From Novosphingobium sp. ZN18A2 (GTDB lineage Bacteria > Pseudomonadota > Alphaproteobacteria > Sphingomonadales > Sphingomonadaceae), in assembly GCF_036784765.1 (NCBI RefSeq), contig NZ_CP136651.1:186001-250000 (forward strand): a DNA stretch of 64,000 bases. The letters run 5' to 3'. Both the position numbers and the translations under genes were made by a program. The number at the start of each line of letters is the position of its first letter. Position 1 is the stretch's first letter. Below, in pieces: positions 15,975 through 23,571 of the stretch. The notes under the pieces are model-generated. The model made no database searches and had not been told where the DNA came from. It saw only the letters and a program-made list of their open reading frames with translations.

Positions 15975-16973
15975 CTATGCCCCCGGCACACCCAGGCTCT
16001 GGCCCGCTTCCTTGATGCGGCGCGTCTGGGCGGTGTCGTTCCGGAACGCGGCGAGCGCGTCTTTCAGCGCCTGTGCGGCCTTGCCCGTCTCGCCCAGTTG
16101 CATGCGGCTGCGCATCAGCATGATCCAGCCGTCGGCGTTATCGGGGTTGGCCTTCAGCTTGGCTTCCAGCCCGTCGACCATACCGTGCACCATCGCGTCC
16201 TGCTGGCCCTTGGGCAACTGCGCGGCGGCCTGCATTTCGTCGCGGCTCGGACCGGGGATCGCCGCCGATGCCTTTTCGGCGCCGTCCGTCACCATGCCGC
16301 CCTTCGGCGCGGCGAACTGCGTTTCGGCCAGCCGTTTGGAAACGTCGATATCGTTCTTCTTCGCGACCGTTTCGATCACGTCGCGGATATCCTGCGCATA
16401 GGGCGCATCCTCTGGCGTATCCTTCAACAGCGCGAACCACGCGTCGATCGCCTTGCGGTGCTGCCCCTTCAGGTCCATCGCCACCGCCTTGAAATATCGC
16501 GCGCGCGCATCCTTGGGGTCCAGCTTCAGCGCGCGATTGAAAGCGCGCATCGCATCGGCGGGAATCTTGCCCTCTTCCTTGCTGGCCAGAACCAGCGACT
16601 CTCCCAGGAAAGAAAACGTCTGCGCGTTATCGGGGTCCAGCGTGGTCGAACGCTTCAGCGCGGTCGCCGCTTCGGCATATTGTTCGGTCTGGAAATAGGA
16701 CCAGCCCAGCATCCGCCAGCCTTCGGCATCGTCGGGGTTGTCCTTCAGCTTGGCTTCCAGCTTCGCGATCACCTCGTCCACCGAGGGCTGCGCCGATGCG
16801 CTGGCCGTGTCGGCGGGCGGCGGGGGAGGCGGCGCTTCCGACGAACTGCCGCGATTGATGGCAATGCCCGCGGCAACGACCGCCACGACTGCCGCCAGGC
16901 CCAGCAGGATGCGCCCCGCCAAGGACCCTCCGCCCGCACCCGATGCCGCCGGTGTGGGGGTCGGTTCGCTCAT
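15975..16973 (-). CDS. CcmI/NrfG-like TPR protein (cytochrome c maturation type)
   Basis: A 332-aa protein with a short cytoplasmic leader, one transmembrane helix (about residues 18-37), a proline-rich linker (APPPPPP) and two blocks of tetratricopeptide repeats. The first block runs from EVIAKLEAKLKDNPDDAEGWRML through the CcmH/NrfG-type ARARYFKAVAMDLKG ... AIDAWFALL; the second is near the C-terminus. This is the layout of CcmI/CycH proteins that present apocytochrome c to haem ligase. The ribosome-binding site is AAGGAGC. It is divergent from the multihaem cytochrome locus starting at 17216 and has no ccmEFGH neighbours here. Confidence 0.8.
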   Translation of the reverse strand: MSEPTPTPAASGAGGGSLAGRILLGLAAVVAVVAAGIAINRGSSSEAPPPPPPADTASASAQPSVDEVIAKLEAKLKDNPDDAEGWRMLGWSYFQTEQYAEAATALKRSTTLDPDNAQTFSFLGESLVLASKEEGKIPADAMRAFNRALKLDPKDARARYFKAVAMDLKGQHRKAIDAWFALLKDTPEDAPYAQDIRDVIETVAKKNDIDVSKRLAETQFAAPKGGMVTDGAEKASAAIPGPSRDEMQAAAQLPKGQQDAMVHGMVDGLEAKLKANPDNADGWIMLMRSRMQLGETGKAAQALKDALAAFRNDTAQTRRIKEAGQSLGVPGA

Positions 16974-17215
16974 CTCGTGCTCCTTGCGCCTGTCGCGGCC
17001 GCGCTTCCGGCCCCTCGCAGCGCGGGCATATCCCGCTGCAAGCGCAAGTTGCAAGGCGCACGGCGAAGGCAAGCGAATGCAATCGCTGCAAAATGCGGGG
17101 TGGCAATCGCGGGCGCATTCGCTAATGTCTCGCAAAGACAGGGGTCGCTTAACAAAAATTCGGGCAGGCGCGCGCAGATGCGCCGCCCTTCGACGTTGCG
17201 GGGGGACGCGCGCCG

Positions 17216-19798
17216 GTGAGCGAAATCTACAAGGTAGCGATCATCGGGTCTGGGCCGGCGGGCATGAGCGCCGCCAGCCAGGCCGCGGTACGGGGCATGA
17301 GCCACGTGCTGCTGGAAAAGACCGACCACCTTTCGGACACGATCTTCAAATACCAGAAGGGCAAGCACGTCATGGCGACGCCCAACCAGCTCATCCTGCG
17401 GGCTGGCGGCGAACAGGCCTTCGATGCGGGCAAGCGCGAGGAGATCCTCGACAAGTGGAATTCGCGCACCAGCGAGCTTGGCGTGAACGTCAAATACAAT
17501 GCAGAGGTAAAGGCGATCCGCGGCACCGGCCCCGAAATTGCGGGCAGCGTGCAGAAGATCGTGATCCGCCGGCGCGGCAAGCCGGACGAGGTGAAGGAAG
17601 TCCAGCGGCACGAACCGCCTTACGAACTGACGCTGACCAACGGCGAGACGATCGTTGCCGAAAACGTGATCCTGGCGATCGGCACGCAGGGCAACCCCAA
17701 CCTTGTGCGCGCGCCCGGCGGCGACCTTGCGCACGTCACCTACCAGCTGGACGATCCCTACGCGATCGTGGACGAACACATCATCGTCGTGGGCGTGGGC
17801 GACGCGGGGATAGAGAACGCGCGCGGCCTGGTGGAAGACCCGGCGCAGGGCAATGTCGTCACCATCCTCAACCGCAAGCCCAAGTCGGCCAACGTGCGCG
17901 AAAGCTTCGCCACCGCGAAAGAACCCAACGCCAAGGCGCTGGTCGAGGACGACGAGGCGGGCAAGCTTACGATCCGGTACGAAACCGAAGTGAAGCAGGT
18001 TGAGCCCGAATGGGTGACGCTGGACACGCGCGACGGCGAAGAGAGGATACGTTGCGACCGGATCATCGCGCGCATCGGGTCGGCCCCGCCGCGCGCCTTC
18101 GTGGAAGGCTGCGGCATAGAATTCGCCAGCGACGACCGGCTGGCATTCCCCACGCTTTCCCCGCAGTTCGAATCCACCGCGCCCGGCGTGTTCGTAATCG
18201 GCGCGCTCGCCGGTTATCCGCTGATCAAGCACTGCATGAACCAGGGCTATGACGTCATAGAGTTCATCGCCGGCAATACGGACCTGAAACCGGCGGACGA
18301 GCCGCTGCTGGCCGAGAAGTTCGCGGACCTGCCGGGCAACCGTTCCGTCGACGAATGGCTTGAGCTGCTGCGCACCAACATCACCATCCTCGAAGGGATG
18401 ACGAGCCTGCAGATGCGCGAGTTCATGCTCGATTCGGACGCGCGCGCCTATCGCAAGGGCGATGCGATCTTCGAAAAGAACGATCCCGGATCGTCGCTTT
18501 TCGCGATCGCCGAAGGGTCGGTCCACGTGCGTATCGATCCGAACGACCCGAGCAAGGTGGTGCCGATCGGCAAGGGGTCCATCTTCGGCGAGGTGGGCCT
18601 GATCTCTGGCCGCCGCCGCGGCGCGACCATCGTGGCCGCCGAAGATGCGATCTGCGTGGAAATCAGCCGCAATGCCGCGCTGAAACTGCAAAGCCAGGTG
18701 CCCAGCGCCAAGCGCGCGATAGAGCGCATTTCCACCGAGCGTCAGTTGTTGCAGATGTTCGGCTCCGGCCTGACGACGGACGACATCCGCGAAGTGGTGG
18801 ATACCGCGAAGATCGAACAGGTGCCCGCCGGCAAGGCGATCATAAACGAAGGCGACGACGGCAAGGACATCTTCGTGATCCGCGTCGGGTCGATGATCGT
18901 GGAAAAGGAAGTGGGCGGAAAGCCCGTGTTCCTCTCATACCTGCCGGCCGGCTCATACGTGGGCGAAATGGCGCTGATCGACGGCGGCCAGCGCACCGCC
19001 ACGGTGCGCGCGGCGATCAAGTCCGAAGTGATCCACGTGGACGGCGACGCGTTCCAGCGCGTGCTCGATTCAAAACCCGCGCTGGTGGCCAAGGCGCGCG
19101 AGGACATGGAACTGCGCCGCCGAACCAACGCGCTGATCGAATCGCGCAAGGGTTCGATGTCGAGCGTGGTCGATCTCTATTCCGAACAGGCCAACTTCCT
19201 TGTCAGCCAGGGGCTGGGCGAAGCAACCGACGTGCTGCTGATCGACGAGCGGCTGTGCGTGGGCTGCGACAACTGCGAAAAGGCCTGCGCCGACAGCCAC
19301 GACGGCCTTTCGCGGCTCGACCGCGAGGCGGGCAAGAGCTTTGCGCACCTCCACGTGCCGACGTCCTGCCGCCACTGCGAACACCCGCACTGCATGGCCG
19401 ATTGCCCGCCCAACGCGATCCATCGCGGGCCGGACGGCGAAGTGTTCATCGACGATACCTGCATCGGTTGCGGCAATTGCCAGCGCAACTGCCCCTATGG
19501 CGTGATCCGCATGGACAAGGTGCCGCCGAAGAAGCCGTCGCTGCTTTCGTGGCTGTTCTTCGGGCGCGGGCCGGGACCGGGCGAACCGCCATACAAGTGG
19601 TCCAGGAAGAACACGCATTACACCGGCGATCCCGCTGTCGACGAAGCGATTGACCGCAAGAAGGCGATCAAGTGCGACATGTGCGCGGGGATAGACGGCG
19701 GCCCTTCGTGCGTGCGCGCCTGCCCCACCGGCGCGGCGATCCGCGTAAGCCCGGACGAGTTCCTCACCGTATCGCGGCTTGAGCGGGAGAGCATGTGA
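17216..19798 (+). CDS. FAD oxidoreductase / double cyclic-nucleotide-binding / 4x[4Fe-4S] ferredoxin fusion
   Basis: An 860-aa cytoplasmic fusion with a GTG start and upstream GGGGGA. Residues 1-355 form a two-Rossmann pyridine nucleotide-disulfide oxidoreductase-like module: FAD site GSGPAG at 11-16 and NAD(P) site GVGDAG at 193-198, with no CxxC redox pair. Residues about 395-505 and 520-625 are two cNMP-binding domains; their phosphate cassettes are FGEVGLISGRRRGATI (E459, R468) and VGEMALIDGGQRTATV (E584, R593). Residues 675-850 hold 16 cysteines in four HybA/NrfC-type clusters (C681, C718, C749 and C820 onward). It probably passes NAD(P)H electrons to the next protein under cyclic nucleotide control (inference). 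Confidence 0.9.
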   Translation: MSEIYKVAIIGSGPAGMSAASQAAVRGMSHVLLEKTDHLSDTIFKYQKGKHVMATPNQLILRAGGEQAFDAGKREEILDKWNSRTSELGVNVKYNAEVKAIRGTGPEIAGSVQKIVIRRRGKPDEVKEVQRHEPPYELTLTNGETIVAENVILAIGTQGNPNLVRAPGGDLAHVTYQLDDPYAIVDEHIIVVGVGDAGIENARGLVEDPAQGNVVTILNRKPKSANVRESFATAKEPNAKALVEDDEAGKLTIRYETEVKQVEPEWVTLDTRDGEERIRCDRIIARIGSAPPRAFVEGCGIEFASDDRLAFPTLSPQFESTAPGVFVIGALAGYPLIKHCMNQGYDVIEFIAGNTDLKPADEPLLAEKFADLPGNRSVDEWLELLRTNITILEGMTSLQMREFMLDSDARAYRKGDAIFEKNDPGSSLFAIAEGSVHVRIDPNDPSKVVPIGKGSIFGEVGLISGRRRGATIVAAEDAICVEISRNAALKLQSQVPSAKRAIERISTERQLLQMFGSGLTTDDIREVVDTAKIEQVPAGKAIINEGDDGKDIFVIRVGSMIVEKEVGGKPVFLSYLPAGSYVGEMALIDGGQRTATVRAAIKSEVIHVDGDAFQRVLDSKPALVAKAREDMELRRRTNALIESRKGSMSSVVDLYSEQANFLVSQGLGEATDVLLIDERLCVGCDNCEKACADSHDGLSRLDREAGKSFAHLHVPTSCRHCEHPHCMADCPPNAIHRGPDGEVFIDDTCIGCGNCQRNCPYGVIRMDKVPPKKPSLLSWLFFGRGPGPGEPPYKWSRKNTHYTGDPAVDEAIDRKKAIKCDMCAGIDGGPSCVRACPTGAAIRVSPDEFLTVSRLERESM

Positions 19799-20757
19799 TG
19801 GCGACGACCGCGCATGGCCCCGACCAGGGCGATTTCGAAACCGCGGCAACCGCGGAGGACACCACCACCACCCGCGAACCCCGGCGCGGCCGCACCCGCC
19901 GCGTGCGCCAATCGGGGCACGAAGGGTTCCTGACATATGCCGGCGGGCGCTGGTGGAAGGTTTCCGCGCTGCTCGCGATTGCGCTGATCGCGCTCTACAT
20001 CTTCGTGCCGCTGCCCCGGCAGCACTTTGGCGGAACCTGGCTGGGCTATACGCTGGGCACAGCAGGCGCGCTGCTGATCCTGTGGCTTACGATGCTGGGC
20101 GTGCGCAAGCGCGCGATCACGCCCGGCCGGTGGAGCCTGAAAGCGTGGACCAGCGCGCACGTCTGGCTGGGGCTGTGCCTGATCGTGATCGGCACGCTGC
20201 ACACCGGCTTCGACCTAGGCTGGAACGTCCACACGCTGGCCTGGGCGCTGATGATGATCGTGATCCTGTCCGGCCTGTTCGGTGTGTGGCTTTATGCCAC
20301 GGTGCCGCAGGCGCTTTCGGCGAACCGCTTCGACGAGGAAGGCGCGATCACCGAAAAGCAGATGATAGAGGCTTTGCGCTCGCTGGACCGGCAGCTGCAC
20401 GAAGCGGCCCAGCCGCTTGACCGCGAAAGCGCCGCGCTGGTGGAGGGCAGCCTTGAGGAAGATCCCTTCGCGGGCAACGTGTGGAACCGGCTGACCGGCA
20501 ATTATCCGCGCTGCGCCACGCGCGATGCCACCGTGCGGCTGCGCGAAGGGCGCGCCTATCGCCCGCGAACGGCGGACGACCCGCTGGACAAGGTCGATGC
20601 CTTGCTTGCGCGCAAGCAGGGCATGCTCGACCGGATGCGCCGGCACCTGAAGCTGAAATCATGGCTGCAGGCGTGGCTCTATATCCACGTTCCGGTCACC
20701 TTCGCGCTGATCGCCGCGCTTTCCGCCCATATCGTTTCCGTCTTCTTCTATTGGTGA
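19798..20757 (+). CDS. Five-helix cytochrome b-like membrane protein
   Basis: A 319-aa protein whose ATG shares one base with the stop of the preceding fusion gene (TGATG). After a 50-aa hydrophilic basic N-terminus there are membrane helices at about 53-71, 82-101, 119-138, 146-167 and 291-317. Between helices 4 and 5 is a soluble loop of about 120 aa. Histidines H121, H135, H145, H297 and H311 lie in or at the ends of helices 3-5 and could ligate one or two b-type haems. It has no strong family match that I recognise. By position it would be the quinone-free or haem-bearing membrane bridge between the ferredoxin module and the decahaem protein. Confidence 0.8.
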   Translation: MATTAHGPDQGDFETAATAEDTTTTREPRRGRTRRVRQSGHEGFLTYAGGRWWKVSALLAIALIALYIFVPLPRQHFGGTWLGYTLGTAGALLILWLTMLGVRKRAITPGRWSLKAWTSAHVWLGLCLIVIGTLHTGFDLGWNVHTLAWALMMIVILSGLFGVWLYATVPQALSANRFDEEGAITEKQMIEALRSLDRQLHEAAQPLDRESAALVEGSLEEDPFAGNVWNRLTGNYPRCATRDATVRLREGRAYRPRTADDPLDKVDALLARKQGMLDRMRRHLKLKSWLQAWLYIHVPVTFALIAALSAHIVSVFFYW

Positions 20758-20767
20758 GGCAAGAGAG

Positions 20768-22669
20768 ATGACCTTCCTTGTCCGCCAGATCGCCCTCAAG
20801 TCCGATGGTACGGAGATCGTCCGCGCATCGCAGGTAGAGGGTGACGAGCTTGCCATCGGGCGCGATTCGTCATGCGGCATCCACTTGCCCGACCTTGCCG
20901 TGGACCCGCGCCATGCGATGATCCGGCGCGCGGGTGACGACGCGCTGACCATCGAATCGATCGGCGAACAGCCGTTCGAACTCAACGGACGCAGCACCAC
21001 GCGCGGCGAGATCGACCTTGCCGAAGGCGCTGAACTTGCCTTCGGCGGGCACCGCATCCAGGTTTCGCGCGACGGCGAAACGGGATTTCCCGATTTCGCG
21101 GTGCGCCGCGTGTCCGCGCTTTCGGAAAGCGCCGAGGACCGCGACCTGGGATCGGTCTATACGCTGAAGGGCCTGCTGCCCGGAAAGCGTATGTCGGCAT
21201 GGACGTTCGCGATCCTGGTGCTGGTCGCCTTCCTCGCCTTCCCGGTCTGGAGCTATCTTACCTACCAGCCGCTGGCGCTGCACAAGGACGCCCGCCGCCC
21301 AGCCGGATGGCATGCGGACATGGTGTGGTCGTCGGGCCATCTTTCGGATGCGCACAAGAAGCTGAAGGGCGATTGCCAGGCCTGCCACGTCGATGCCTTC
21401 GTGGCCGTGCGCGACAATGCCTGCCTCACCTGCCACACAGACGATGCGCACCAGCACATTGCCGACCGGCCGGGGCAGAGCGCCGTCGAACGGCTTACGC
21501 TGGCACGTGGCACGCCGACCGGACTTGCCGGATTGCAGCGGTCGGTCGCGCTGATGTTCAACCGTCCGCCGGGCAGGTGTGTCGAATGTCACACCGAACA
21601 CACCGGCGCCGGTGCTATGCCCGCAACCCGCCAGAAGTTCTGCACGGATTGCCACGCCGGGATGAAGAAACGCCTGCCAGATACGACCATCGGCGACGCC
21701 GCCGATTTCGGGACGGACCACCCGCAATTCCGCCCCGCCATCGTGGTTGACCCGGCACCCGAACAGCCGCTGCTCAAGCGCGTGGCGTGGACGCCGGACC
21801 TGCGTGAGAACGACGGGCTGAAGTTCACCCACAAGCAGCACCTGTCGAAAACCAACGCGGTCGCCCAGATGGTGATTCGCCGCCCCGCACTCTACAAGGG
21901 CGAAAAGGCACTGGATTGCCAGGATTGCCACAAGGTCGACGCCACGGGCGTCCGGTACCAGCCGGTGAAGATGGAGCAGGCCTGCGAAACCTGCCACACG
22001 CTCAACTTCGACCGGGTGGACGGCACCTTCCGCAGCCTTCAGCACGGCAAGCCCGCGCAAGTGGTGGCAGACCTGCGCGCGTTCTATCGCGGCACCGGGC
22101 CGGTGCGTCCGCCGAACCTTTCGGGTCTTTCGCGCCGCCAGCCGGGCGAAGCCGCGCGGCAATCGAACGCGGCGGACTATGCGCGCGCGGTGCGCTTCTA
22201 TCCGACGCGCGCGAGCCAGGCGATCGCGGCGGTCTTTACCAAGGGCGGGATGTGCTATGACTGCCACGTGGTAACGCGCACCGGCACGGCGGCGACCGGC
22301 GGCTTCGCGGTCGAAAACGTCGCGCAGAACACGCGTTATTACCACACCGGCTGGTTCAGCCACAAAGACCACACCAAGTCCGACTGCCAGACCTGCCACA
22401 CAAAGGCGGAAACATCGAACGACGCAAACGACCTGCTGGTGCCGGGGCTTGACGGGCCGGGCGGTTGCCGCACGTGTCACGTGGGTGAGGCGGGCACGCA
22501 CCTTGCCTCGATCAAGGTGAAAGACCCGGTCGATTCAAGCTGTGCGATGTGCCATTCCTATCACATGGACAACGGCCCCCCGTGGGAACCGAAGGACAAG
22601 CGCAAGCAGCAGATGCACACCGCGGATGCCGCCACGCCAACCCGGCTGAGCCAGGCGGCGGCGCGCTGA
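20768..22669 (+). CDS. FHA domain-transmembrane-decahaem cytochrome c fusion
   Basis: A 633-aa protein joining two worlds. Residues about 25-100 form an FHA fold: GR at 31-32, S34/S35, RH at 48-49 and LNG at 72-74, although the usual SxxH serine is replaced in DPRHA. One hydrophobic helix lies at about 144-165. The C-terminal 460 residues contain ten CxxCH haem sites, starting at C203, C219, C271, C292, C384, C406, C496, C540, C567 and C592. The expected topology is FHA inside and haems in the periplasm. FHA domains bind phosphothreonine peptides, so a phosphorylation input is plausible. It follows the membrane protein by 10 bp. Confidence 0.92.
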   Translation: MTFLVRQIALKSDGTEIVRASQVEGDELAIGRDSSCGIHLPDLAVDPRHAMIRRAGDDALTIESIGEQPFELNGRSTTRGEIDLAEGAELAFGGHRIQVSRDGETGFPDFAVRRVSALSESAEDRDLGSVYTLKGLLPGKRMSAWTFAILVLVAFLAFPVWSYLTYQPLALHKDARRPAGWHADMVWSSGHLSDAHKKLKGDCQACHVDAFVAVRDNACLTCHTDDAHQHIADRPGQSAVERLTLARGTPTGLAGLQRSVALMFNRPPGRCVECHTEHTGAGAMPATRQKFCTDCHAGMKKRLPDTTIGDAADFGTDHPQFRPAIVVDPAPEQPLLKRVAWTPDLRENDGLKFTHKQHLSKTNAVAQMVIRRPALYKGEKALDCQDCHKVDATGVRYQPVKMEQACETCHTLNFDRVDGTFRSLQHGKPAQVVADLRAFYRGTGPVRPPNLSGLSRRQPGEAARQSNAADYARAVRFYPTRASQAIAAVFTKGGMCYDCHVVTRTGTAATGGFAVENVAQNTRYYHTGWFSHKDHTKSDCQTCHTKAETSNDANDLLVPGLDGPGGCRTCHVGEAGTHLASIKVKDPVDSSCAMCHSYHMDNGPPWEPKDKRKQQMHTADAATPTRLSQAAAR

Positions 22670-22689: not shown

Positions 22690-23571
22690 ATGCTGATCGC
22701 ACAGATCACCGACATCCACCTGGGGTTCGAACCGGATACGCCGGGCGAATTCAACCGCCAGCGGCTGGATCGCACGGTCGCCGCGCTGAAAGCGCTCGAC
22801 CCGCAGCCAGACATGCTGCTGGCCACCGGAGACCTGATCGACCGCGGCGACACCGAAAGCTACGAACGCCTGAAGGAGGCGCTGACCGGCCTGCCTTTCC
22901 CGGTGCACATGGCGCTGGGCAACCATGACGACCGTGCGAATTTCAACGCGGCCTTCCCAGAGTACGACTATGCCGACGGCTTCCTGCAATACGAGGTCGA
23001 CACGCCGGACCTGCGCATCCTGGTGCTCGATACGCTGGAAGAAGGCCGCCACGGCGGCGCTTTCTGCCCAACGCGCGCAAAATGGCTCTCGGCCCGGCTT
23101 GACGAGCAGCCGGACAGACGGACGCTGATCGTCCAGCACCACCCGCCGGTCGAAGTCGGGATTCCCTGGATGAACACCGATCCGGCAGAACCCTGGGTCG
23201 AGCAGCTCGCATCATGCCTGCGCGGCCGCGAAAACGTGATCGGGCTGGTCTGCGGGCACATCCACCGCGCGATCACGACCCACTGGGAAGGCCTTGTGGT
23301 GGCGACTTGCCCGTCCACCGCACCGCAAGTGGCGCTGGACCTTCGGCCCATTGATCCCGGCACGCCCGACCAGCGCGAACTGATCATTGCCGATCCACCC
23401 GGTTATGCGCTGCACTGGTGGAACGGGCGCGAGCTTATCACGCACTGGAACACGGCAGAGGACCATGCCGTGCTCGCCCGCTATGACGCGAACCTGCAAG
23501 GGATGATCCAGCACATGCTGGCCGAACGCCCCGACGGCGGCGCGAGCAGTGGCGCGCTGGCGCCCGAATAG
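22690..23571 (+). CDS. CpdA-like metallophosphoesterase (probable cyclic nucleotide phosphodiesterase)
   Basis: A 293-aa calcineurin-like phosphoesterase. All metal-binding motifs are present in order: TDIHLG (D8, H10), GDLIDRG (47-53), GNHDD (77-81), QHHPP and GHIHR. The sequence layout and length match class III cyclic nucleotide phosphodiesterases such as CpdA and Rv0805. It starts 20 bp after the decahaem gene on the same strand, so it is probably part of that operon. Together with two cNMP-binding domains in the first gene, this suggests local control of cAMP or a related nucleotide. Substrate is inference; other phosphodiesters are possible. Confidence 0.88.
   Translation: MLIAQITDIHLGFEPDTPGEFNRQRLDRTVAALKALDPQPDMLLATGDLIDRGDTESYERLKEALTGLPFPVHMALGNHDDRANFNAAFPEYDYADGFLQYEVDTPDLRILVLDTLEEGRHGGAFCPTRAKWLSARLDEQPDRRTLIVQHHPPVEVGIPWMNTDPAEPWVEQLASCLRGRENVIGLVCGHIHRAITTHWEGLVVATCPSTAPQVALDLRPIDPGTPDQRELIIADPPGYALHWWNGRELITHWNTAEDHAVLARYDANLQGMIQHMLAERPDGGASSGALAPE

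Follow-up and report, generated by a model that had tools for sequence, protein, structure and literature searches.

A 64,000-nucleotide stretch of the genome of Novosphingobium sp. ZN18A2 (NZ_CP136651.1, positions 186,001 to 250,000, hereafter the window) encodes a protein in which an FHA domain is joined through one membrane helix to a decahaem c-type cytochrome. Our analysis points to an inner-membrane NAD(P)H:cytochrome complex, controlled by cyclic nucleotide and feeding a dedicated outer-membrane or surface apparatus, in which this FHA-decahaem protein is the subunit facing the periplasm; the weight for and against this reading as a whole appears to us about equal. The gene was found to be the third in a tight operon, after those of a reductase and a membrane protein and before that of a calcineurin-like phosphoesterase (MPE), and a second locus of the same genome, 1.14 Mb away from this inner module, encodes the candidate outer-membrane partners (Table 1).

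Table 1. Coordinates of the operon, its neighbour and the outer-membrane locus (positions in the window unless a locus is named)
Feature	Position	Strand	Basis or remark
FHA domain, one transmembrane helix, decahaem c-type cytochrome	20768..22669	+	ATG start, 633 aa
FHA domain, residues 1-110	20768..21097	+	topology puts it in the cytoplasm; of the pocket residues, Arg32 is conserved but Ser and NGT are not
Single transmembrane helix, signal anchor, residues 142-160	21191..21247	+	hydropathy; helix 142-170 in AlphaFold2 model
Periplasmic decahaem part, ten CxxCH motifs for haem attachment, residues 203-596	21374..22555	+	motif count
NAD(P)H/FAD reductase with two cyclic-nucleotide-binding (CNB) domains and ferredoxin, 860 aa	17216..19798	+	Pfam, NCBIfam, PDB, conservation
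320-aa membrane protein, cytochrome b561-like	19795..20757	+	Pfam, invariant His
Calcineurin-like phosphoesterase (MPE), CpdA/SpdA-related	22690..23571	+	Pfam, NCBIfam
Divergent TPR protein, CcmH/CycH (c-type cytochrome biogenesis) type	15975..17135	-	Pfam; start not refined
Outer-membrane locus of the same genome	L173:5864-16157 = G000:C1 1343863-1354156		c554-like, HbpS-like lipoprotein, barrel-like, giant

The FHA-decahaem protein and its operon

A preliminary description of the gene had counted ten CxxCH motifs in the C-terminal part, and these were confirmed at residues 203, 219, 271, 292, 384, 406, 496, 540, 567 and 592; the number was far above that in 10,000 shuffles of the protein (mean 0.03, maximum 3). 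The Cytochrome_C7 profile PF14522 matched in three stretches with 58.9 bits against a cut-off of 24.8, which places this part with the multihaem class III or c7 cytochromes, and PF14537 (33.8 against 25) and PF02085 (28.2 against 22.9) matched as well; the MtrA/DmsE decahaem family TIGR03508 was absent from the protein's seven NCBIfam matches at E<=0.1. The AlphaFold2 model of the haem part was poor, with a predicted local distance difference test score (pLDDT) below 60 in most blocks and a predicted template modelling score of 0.28 for the full 633-aa protein; the decahaem assignment is therefore drawn solely from the motifs and Pfam and carries no claim on the fold. At the N-terminus the FHA fold was borne out by the Pfam score (PF00498, residues 30-93, 26.2 bits against a gathering score of 20.7), by the AlphaFold2 model of residues 1-110 (block-mean pLDDT 83-96) and by the structural matches, the top-ranked Foldseek entries being mostly titled FHA domain and the best VIA-align row being EmbR (Z 9.8, root-mean-square deviation 2.6, 93 aligned).

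Between the two parts, the single membrane helix of the preliminary description was recovered as a 19-residue hydrophobic stretch at 142-160. By the same hydropathy threshold exactly one such stretch was present in 90 of 91 distinct FHA-decahaem relatives, a set from which seven second copies (L139-L145, repeating L117-L123), exact duplicates and sequences below 85% length had been excluded. Haem is attached covalently to c-type cytochromes in the periplasm, and this together with the one helix supports the earlier placing of the FHA and decahaem parts on opposite sides of the membrane.

Spacing within the operon was narrow: the open reading frames (ORFs) of the reductase and the membrane protein overlapped by 4 bases, and 10 bases lay before the FHA-decahaem gene and 20 between it and the ATG of the MPE gene. 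Locus counts were made on 80 of 278 named relatives, comprising Novosphingobium, Croceicoccus, Blastomonas, Sphingorhabdus, Parasphingorhabdus, Sphingopyxis, Sphingobium, Sphingomonas and bins without genus name. The MPE gene began no more than 1 kb after the end of the FHA-decahaem gene in all 80; upstream, the membrane protein was present in 77/77 and the reductase in 72/72 of those with enough DNA. Judged from these sequences, the four-gene operon is one conserved unit. The alignments and loci show directly which parts make up this unit, how they are ordered, that they occur together, and which key residues are kept or lost.

Co-occurrence was also found across the phylum. The genomes with a reductase match at E<=1e-60 were the same 15, out of 398 sampled, as those with a long FHA-decahaem match (E<=1e-35), and the other 80 genomes with matches to the FHA-decahaem query had only stretches of at most 39.4 bits. 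In a further set, 26 of 98 genomes gave matches, namely the genome of the window, 24 other carriers of the same genus, and G045, which was left out of the count since its match was short and covered haem motifs; G058 was split over two contigs, and G020 had a second, partial copy. G098 carried a second copy of the reductase (L162, G098:C17:52844-54946) on a contig other than that of its first module. In two loci of distant genomes (L142:3850-7206 and L143:3052-6423) reductase and membrane protein were fused in one in-frame ORF of 1118 and 1123 aa, respectively; these two carriers have neither barrel nor giant, and nine CxxCH motifs were counted in the FHA-decahaem ORF of each. No MPE was seen in the short flanks of seven carriers from outside the own family (L117-L123), and in longer stretches of the same seven an MPE-like gene was found in G356 only, a few kb on.

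Pfam and NCBIfam resolved the reductase into FAD/NAD(P) Rossmann domains, the two CNB domains and a ferredoxin domain. The CNB profile PF00027 matched in two stretches with 115.4 bits, and the assignment extended to the phosphate-binding Glu and Arg, as the PKA-like pocket pairs E459/R468 and E584/R593 were invariant in all 80 aligned reductases. Equally invariant were the 16 ferredoxin Cys, which give room for four [4Fe-4S] clusters, and, in each of the two dinucleotide motifs, the glycines of GxG. Among the PDB matches, those of the CNB region included cGMP-dependent kinases and PKA regulatory subunits, and those of the ferredoxin region a formate hydrogenlyase subunit. In the membrane protein, His122/His136 and His298/His312 (14 residues apart in each pair, one helix each) and His146 were invariant in 84/84 distinct proteins, and all 46 members scanned matched cytochrome b561 (PF01292) at E<=1, the best at 6e-8. 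The MPE scored 69.3 on the general Metallophos profile PF00149 (cut-off 21.5); among its 86 distinct translations, 15 with no more than 35 residues were set aside, and the metal motifs DxH, GDxxD, GNHD and GHxH were present in all 71 translations above 200 aa.

Some CNB domains bind no nucleotide, and the two domains here could be degenerate structural modules in an operon without second-messenger control. We regard this as improbable, given the intact Glu/Arg pairs of both domains in every aligned reductase, the phosphodiesterase-like gene adjoining in every named locus, and a CHASE2 cyclase gene (L140:14808-16670) that directly followed the MPE-like gene in G356. The sole PF00211 match in the genome of the window was also a CHASE2 cyclase (L185:2217-4244), lying some 7.6 kb ahead of the outer-membrane locus. 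As far as the sequences tell, the visible signalling input of the operon is a cyclic nucleotide, not phosphothreonine.

The FHA pocket and the phosphorylation question

Phosphothreonine was the ligand assumed in the preliminary description, in which the fusion connected cytoplasmic Ser/Thr phosphorylation with periplasmic electron transfer; the conservation of the pocket among orthologues had been named beforehand as a point on which this would turn. The register of the pocket was set by HMMER alignments to the FHA domains of OdhI, GarA and Rad53, and we took as pocket positions those that contact phosphothreonine in FHA domains, namely the Arg of GR, the Ser of SxxH and the NGT loop. Across the 91 relatives, Arg32 of the GR motif was invariant. 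At the SxxH Ser position the residue was Asn in 37, Asp in 34 and Glu in 9 (80 together), Ser in 3 and another residue in the rest; of the three NGT residues, Asn occurred in 8 relatives and Thr in 24, and Gly was wholly absent, its place being taken by Phe in 85. Asn and Thr stood jointly in 8/91, none of which had the SxxH Ser. The pocket lacks the residue set of the phosphothreonine-binding kind, the Arg being kept and the Ser and the NGT loop lost in most relatives, and the outcome went largely against the earlier proposal, with only Arg32 left of the usual contact positions. The three relatives with Ser (position 46) were L070, L079 and L120, and those with Asn and Thr (positions 69 and 71) were L082, L083, L085, L086, L088, L090, L093 and L095; the full pocket set was found in no relative.

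The absence of a Ser/Thr kinase from the window, noted earlier, held, and it extended genome-wide for two families: no PF00069 or HipA_C match was found in the 3.30-Mb single-contig, 99.99%-complete genome, other kinase families not having been searched. The FHA-decahaem domain was the only PF00498 match of this genome. Among 58 other genomes of the genus, PF00069 was present in 12/24 other carriers versus 10/34 non-carriers, which is no association (Fisher p 0.17), and among the carriers of the phylum sample it was present in 8/15 and absent in 7/15.

With the pocket residues unconserved and PF00069 and HipA_C matches absent, the phosphorylation reading was rejected as the main explanation of the domain, and the proposed link from phosphorylation to electron transfer is left unsupported. 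That the domain is nevertheless a genuine phosphothreonine reader coupling Ser/Thr phosphorylation to the cytochrome appears to us very unlikely. The fold is a real FHA fold, and kinases do occur in half of the same-genus carriers and about half of those of the phylum sample; but the Ser is nearly gone, the loop Gly is gone altogether, the gene and the kinase are unassociated within the genus, and the complete genome studied here has no match to either kinase family although its FHA gene is intact. Two observations count against our own reading at this point. PF00069 kinases were present in all five sampled carriers from outside the class, which is not to be dismissed, and the invariance of Arg32 together with the eight relatives that keep Asn and Thr leaves a ligand role of the FHA pocket possible. 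On the residue patterns it seems improbable that the domain reads phosphothreonine; it probably serves as a phosphorylation-independent docking surface, whose Arg is perhaps satisfied by the Asp, Glu or Asn that replaced the pocket Ser.

The outer-membrane locus

In the genome of the window the second locus encodes, in this order, a c554-like protein with four CxxCH motifs, an HbpS-like lipoprotein, a barrel-like protein (G000:C1:1348042-1349559) and a giant protein. The giant, a 1538-aa ORF whose start was not refined (1329-1502 aa in relatives), combines ten CxxCH motifs with LVIVD repeats. Two further genomes (G471 and G463) had an HbpS-like protein and the barrel-like protein of about 650 residues among the genes after the module, and the HbpS-like protein of G463 showed, by eye, a lipoprotein-like N-terminus. 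In G471 a Glu/Leu/Phe/Val dehydrogenase gene (L139:4837-6366) lay between the c554-like and HbpS-like genes. The barrel-like protein looks like an outer-membrane barrel from its sequence, with an aromatic last residue in all ten members; no MtrB/PioB porin match was found in Pfam at E<=0.1 for these ten.

Occurrence of the barrel-like protein followed that of the inner module closely. In the phylum sample it was found (E<=1e-20) in 12/398 genomes, all of them among the 15 module carriers, and in none of the 383 non-carriers (hypergeometric p 1.6e-20, uncorrected for relatedness); within the own family the counts were 8/8 carriers and 0/11 non-carriers. A set of 60 genomes chosen by us comprised the 15 phylum-sample carriers (14 at >=98% completeness, G250 at 76%), 14 of the 24 same-genus carriers (>=98% complete) and 31 non-carriers. 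Here the barrel was present in 26/29 module carriers versus 0/31 non-carriers, and the giant in 25/29 versus 0/31. On pMSHV, a conjugative 959-kb plasmid of Sphingobium herbicidovorans, both operons stood side by side (L189, NZ_CP020539.1 800185-825948). The genes are annotated as 'cyclic nucleotide-binding domain-containing protein', 'hypothetical', 'cytochrome c3 family', 'metallophosphoesterase', 'multiheme c-type cytochrome', 'hypothetical', 'heme-binding' and 'cytochrome c family'. The FHA-decahaem gene was found on 12 Sphingobium plasmid records, 11 of them typed non-mobilizable.

These counts bear on whether the two loci form a conduit at all. The inner module might instead perform a purely periplasmic redox task, such as keeping a periplasmic or c554-like partner reduced, with the outer locus a downstream enzyme. 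Three of the 15 sampled carriers do have the module without barrel and giant, and the LVIVD region of the giant could be an enzyme or binding domain; the confinement of the barrel-like protein to module carriers argues in the other direction, and we hold a periplasmic task to be unlikely.

The proposed electron route and its place among known systems

In the complex that we favour, electrons would pass from NAD(P)H through FAD to the four [4Fe-4S] clusters of the 860-aa protein in the cytoplasm, from there to two b-haems in the 320-aa membrane protein, and on to the ten c-haems of the FHA-decahaem protein in the periplasm. The c554-like cytochrome would then carry them to the barrel, the HbpS-like lipoprotein and the giant decahaem/LVIVD protein at the outer membrane. 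The two CNB domains of the reductase would open or close this path on binding cyclic nucleotide, and the phosphodiesterase-like protein of the operon would reset the signal. The cytoplasmic FHA domain, anchored beside the b cytochrome, would dock the reductase to the cytochrome without phosphorylation. In this scheme we infer the haem loading of the b subunit, the ligand (cAMP or cGMP), the gating, the docking partner of the FHA domain, the fold of the barrel and the final acceptor. A more complete version, to which we give only tentative credence, would be a second-messenger-gated route by which sphingomonads, and other members of the phylum here and there, bring electrons from cytoplasmic NAD(P)H to the cell surface. 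It would be made up of a cyclase (unlinked or nearby), the phosphodiesterase, the CNB-gated reductase, the cytochrome b, the FHA-anchored decahaem protein, a new barrel family and the giant; export would be switched allosterically by cAMP or cGMP, and the FHA dock would be structural.

Several observations weigh against this reading. The membrane protein of the window scored 15.0 on PF01292, below the curated cut-off of 30.1, and its AlphaFold model was moderate (pLDDT 74) and had no PDB structural match at E<=0.001, a missing match that is no evidence of a new fold. The MPE belonged to neither specific NCBIfam family, with 135.7 against a cut-off of 400 for SpdA and 90.6 against 225 for CpdA. 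The CHASE2 cyclase of the same genome was separated from the outer-membrane locus by ORFs that include a cysteinyl-tRNA synthetase. On the outer side, the barrel-like members gave only a weak Alginate_exp match (Pfam, E<=0.1), in 2/10, and no PDB sequence match at E<=1, and the co-occurrence of the c554-like and HbpS-like proteins was seen in fetched loci only. Neither barrel nor giant accompanied the inner module in G098, G131 and G250, and in G251 the barrel was present with no giant found, its contig stopping 333 bases past the barrel; the outer part is therefore not obligatory.

As to direction, flow outward seems to us roughly twice as probable as flow inward. In the inward route an external donor would supply the electrons, which would cross the outer-membrane apparatus and the decahaem protein to reduce NAD(P)+ in the cytoplasm; taken as a full alternative, this route is rather unlikely. 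The 80 named carriers are sphingomonads, which are generally aerobic heterotrophs, or unresolved bins; reducing NAD+ with electrons from the usual external donors is energetically uphill, and the loci showed no energy-coupling subunit. In its favour, the parts fit either direction equally, and a ten-haem 'Forkhead-associated protein' that is possibly of the same family occurs as pangenome cluster 403 in 27/87 genomes of iron-oxidising Gallionellaceae, where it is listed under 'Other' without interpretation (PMC10734462). This cluster is like the FHA-decahaem protein in its FHA annotation and ten haem motifs, a comparison by description only, and the passages on it give no operon, reductase or cyclic-nucleotide link. 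The present system suggests a context for such uninterpreted cytochromes of iron-oxidising bacteria.

The outward complex that we prefer shares features with four groups of known systems. Formate dehydrogenase-N and the DmsB-NrfC layout pair a four-cluster ferredoxin with a dihaem cytochrome b. The reductase's ferredoxin domain likewise matched formate hydrogenlyase subunit 2 and NrfC/DmsB-type proteins, and its 320-aa partner has paired His on two helices; however, the ferredoxin here is fused to the NAD(P)H/FAD part and two CNB domains, and electrons would go to a decahaem cytochrome, not to quinone. The porin-cytochrome conduits MtrAB, MtoAB, PCC3 and Uet also combine multihaem cytochromes with an outer-membrane barrel-like partner along an inner-to-outer route. 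They differ in that the ten barrel-like proteins gave no MtrB/PioB-type match and only the weak Alginate_exp, and in that the decahaem protein here is membrane-anchored with a cytoplasmic FHA domain and served by an NAD(P)H reductase of its own that contains CNB domains. The giant had short stretches similar to ExtM of the Ext cytochromes (NCBIfam ExtM/ExtN/ExtO, selenite/tellurite reduction operon), which originate from Geobacter, but two members scored 55.1 and 62.0 bits over a best stretch of about 50 residues, far below the family cut-off of 800, and the giant carries LVIVD repeats. YscD/PrgH-type FHA-like domains are cytoplasmic, are joined by one helix to a periplasmic part and have a phospho-independent role in assembly. 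The FHA-decahaem protein has this same layout and scored 28.1 bits on PF16697; yet this lies under the cut-off of 33.2, which leaves it outside the YscD-type family, and there was no secretion-system gene among the annotated neighbours.

We file the system with the trans-envelope electron conduits, noting that its barrel-like protein is covered by no tested family model; to our knowledge a CNB-reductase and an FHA anchor are not part of known conduits of this kind. Neither the operon nor the two-locus system was found described in term searches of the open-access literature, with subscription papers and preprints outside their scope, and the FHA-decahaem set is for this reason apparently undescribed. 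Bacterial cAMP acts mostly via transcription factors, and a cyclic nucleotide that controls a transmembrane electron pathway directly and allosterically would, if true, be an unusual case of second-messenger control. The co-occurrence itself provides a defined parts list in culturable aerobes and a first functional context for the apparently undescribed barrel-like family and for the giant decahaem/LVIVD protein.

Beside the operon, 70 of the 71 named loci that had sufficient DNA carried the divergent CcmH/CycH-type TPR gene upstream, and a gene of this type also stood beside the plasmid copy on pMSHV; its product may serve as a dedicated factor for cytochrome c maturation.

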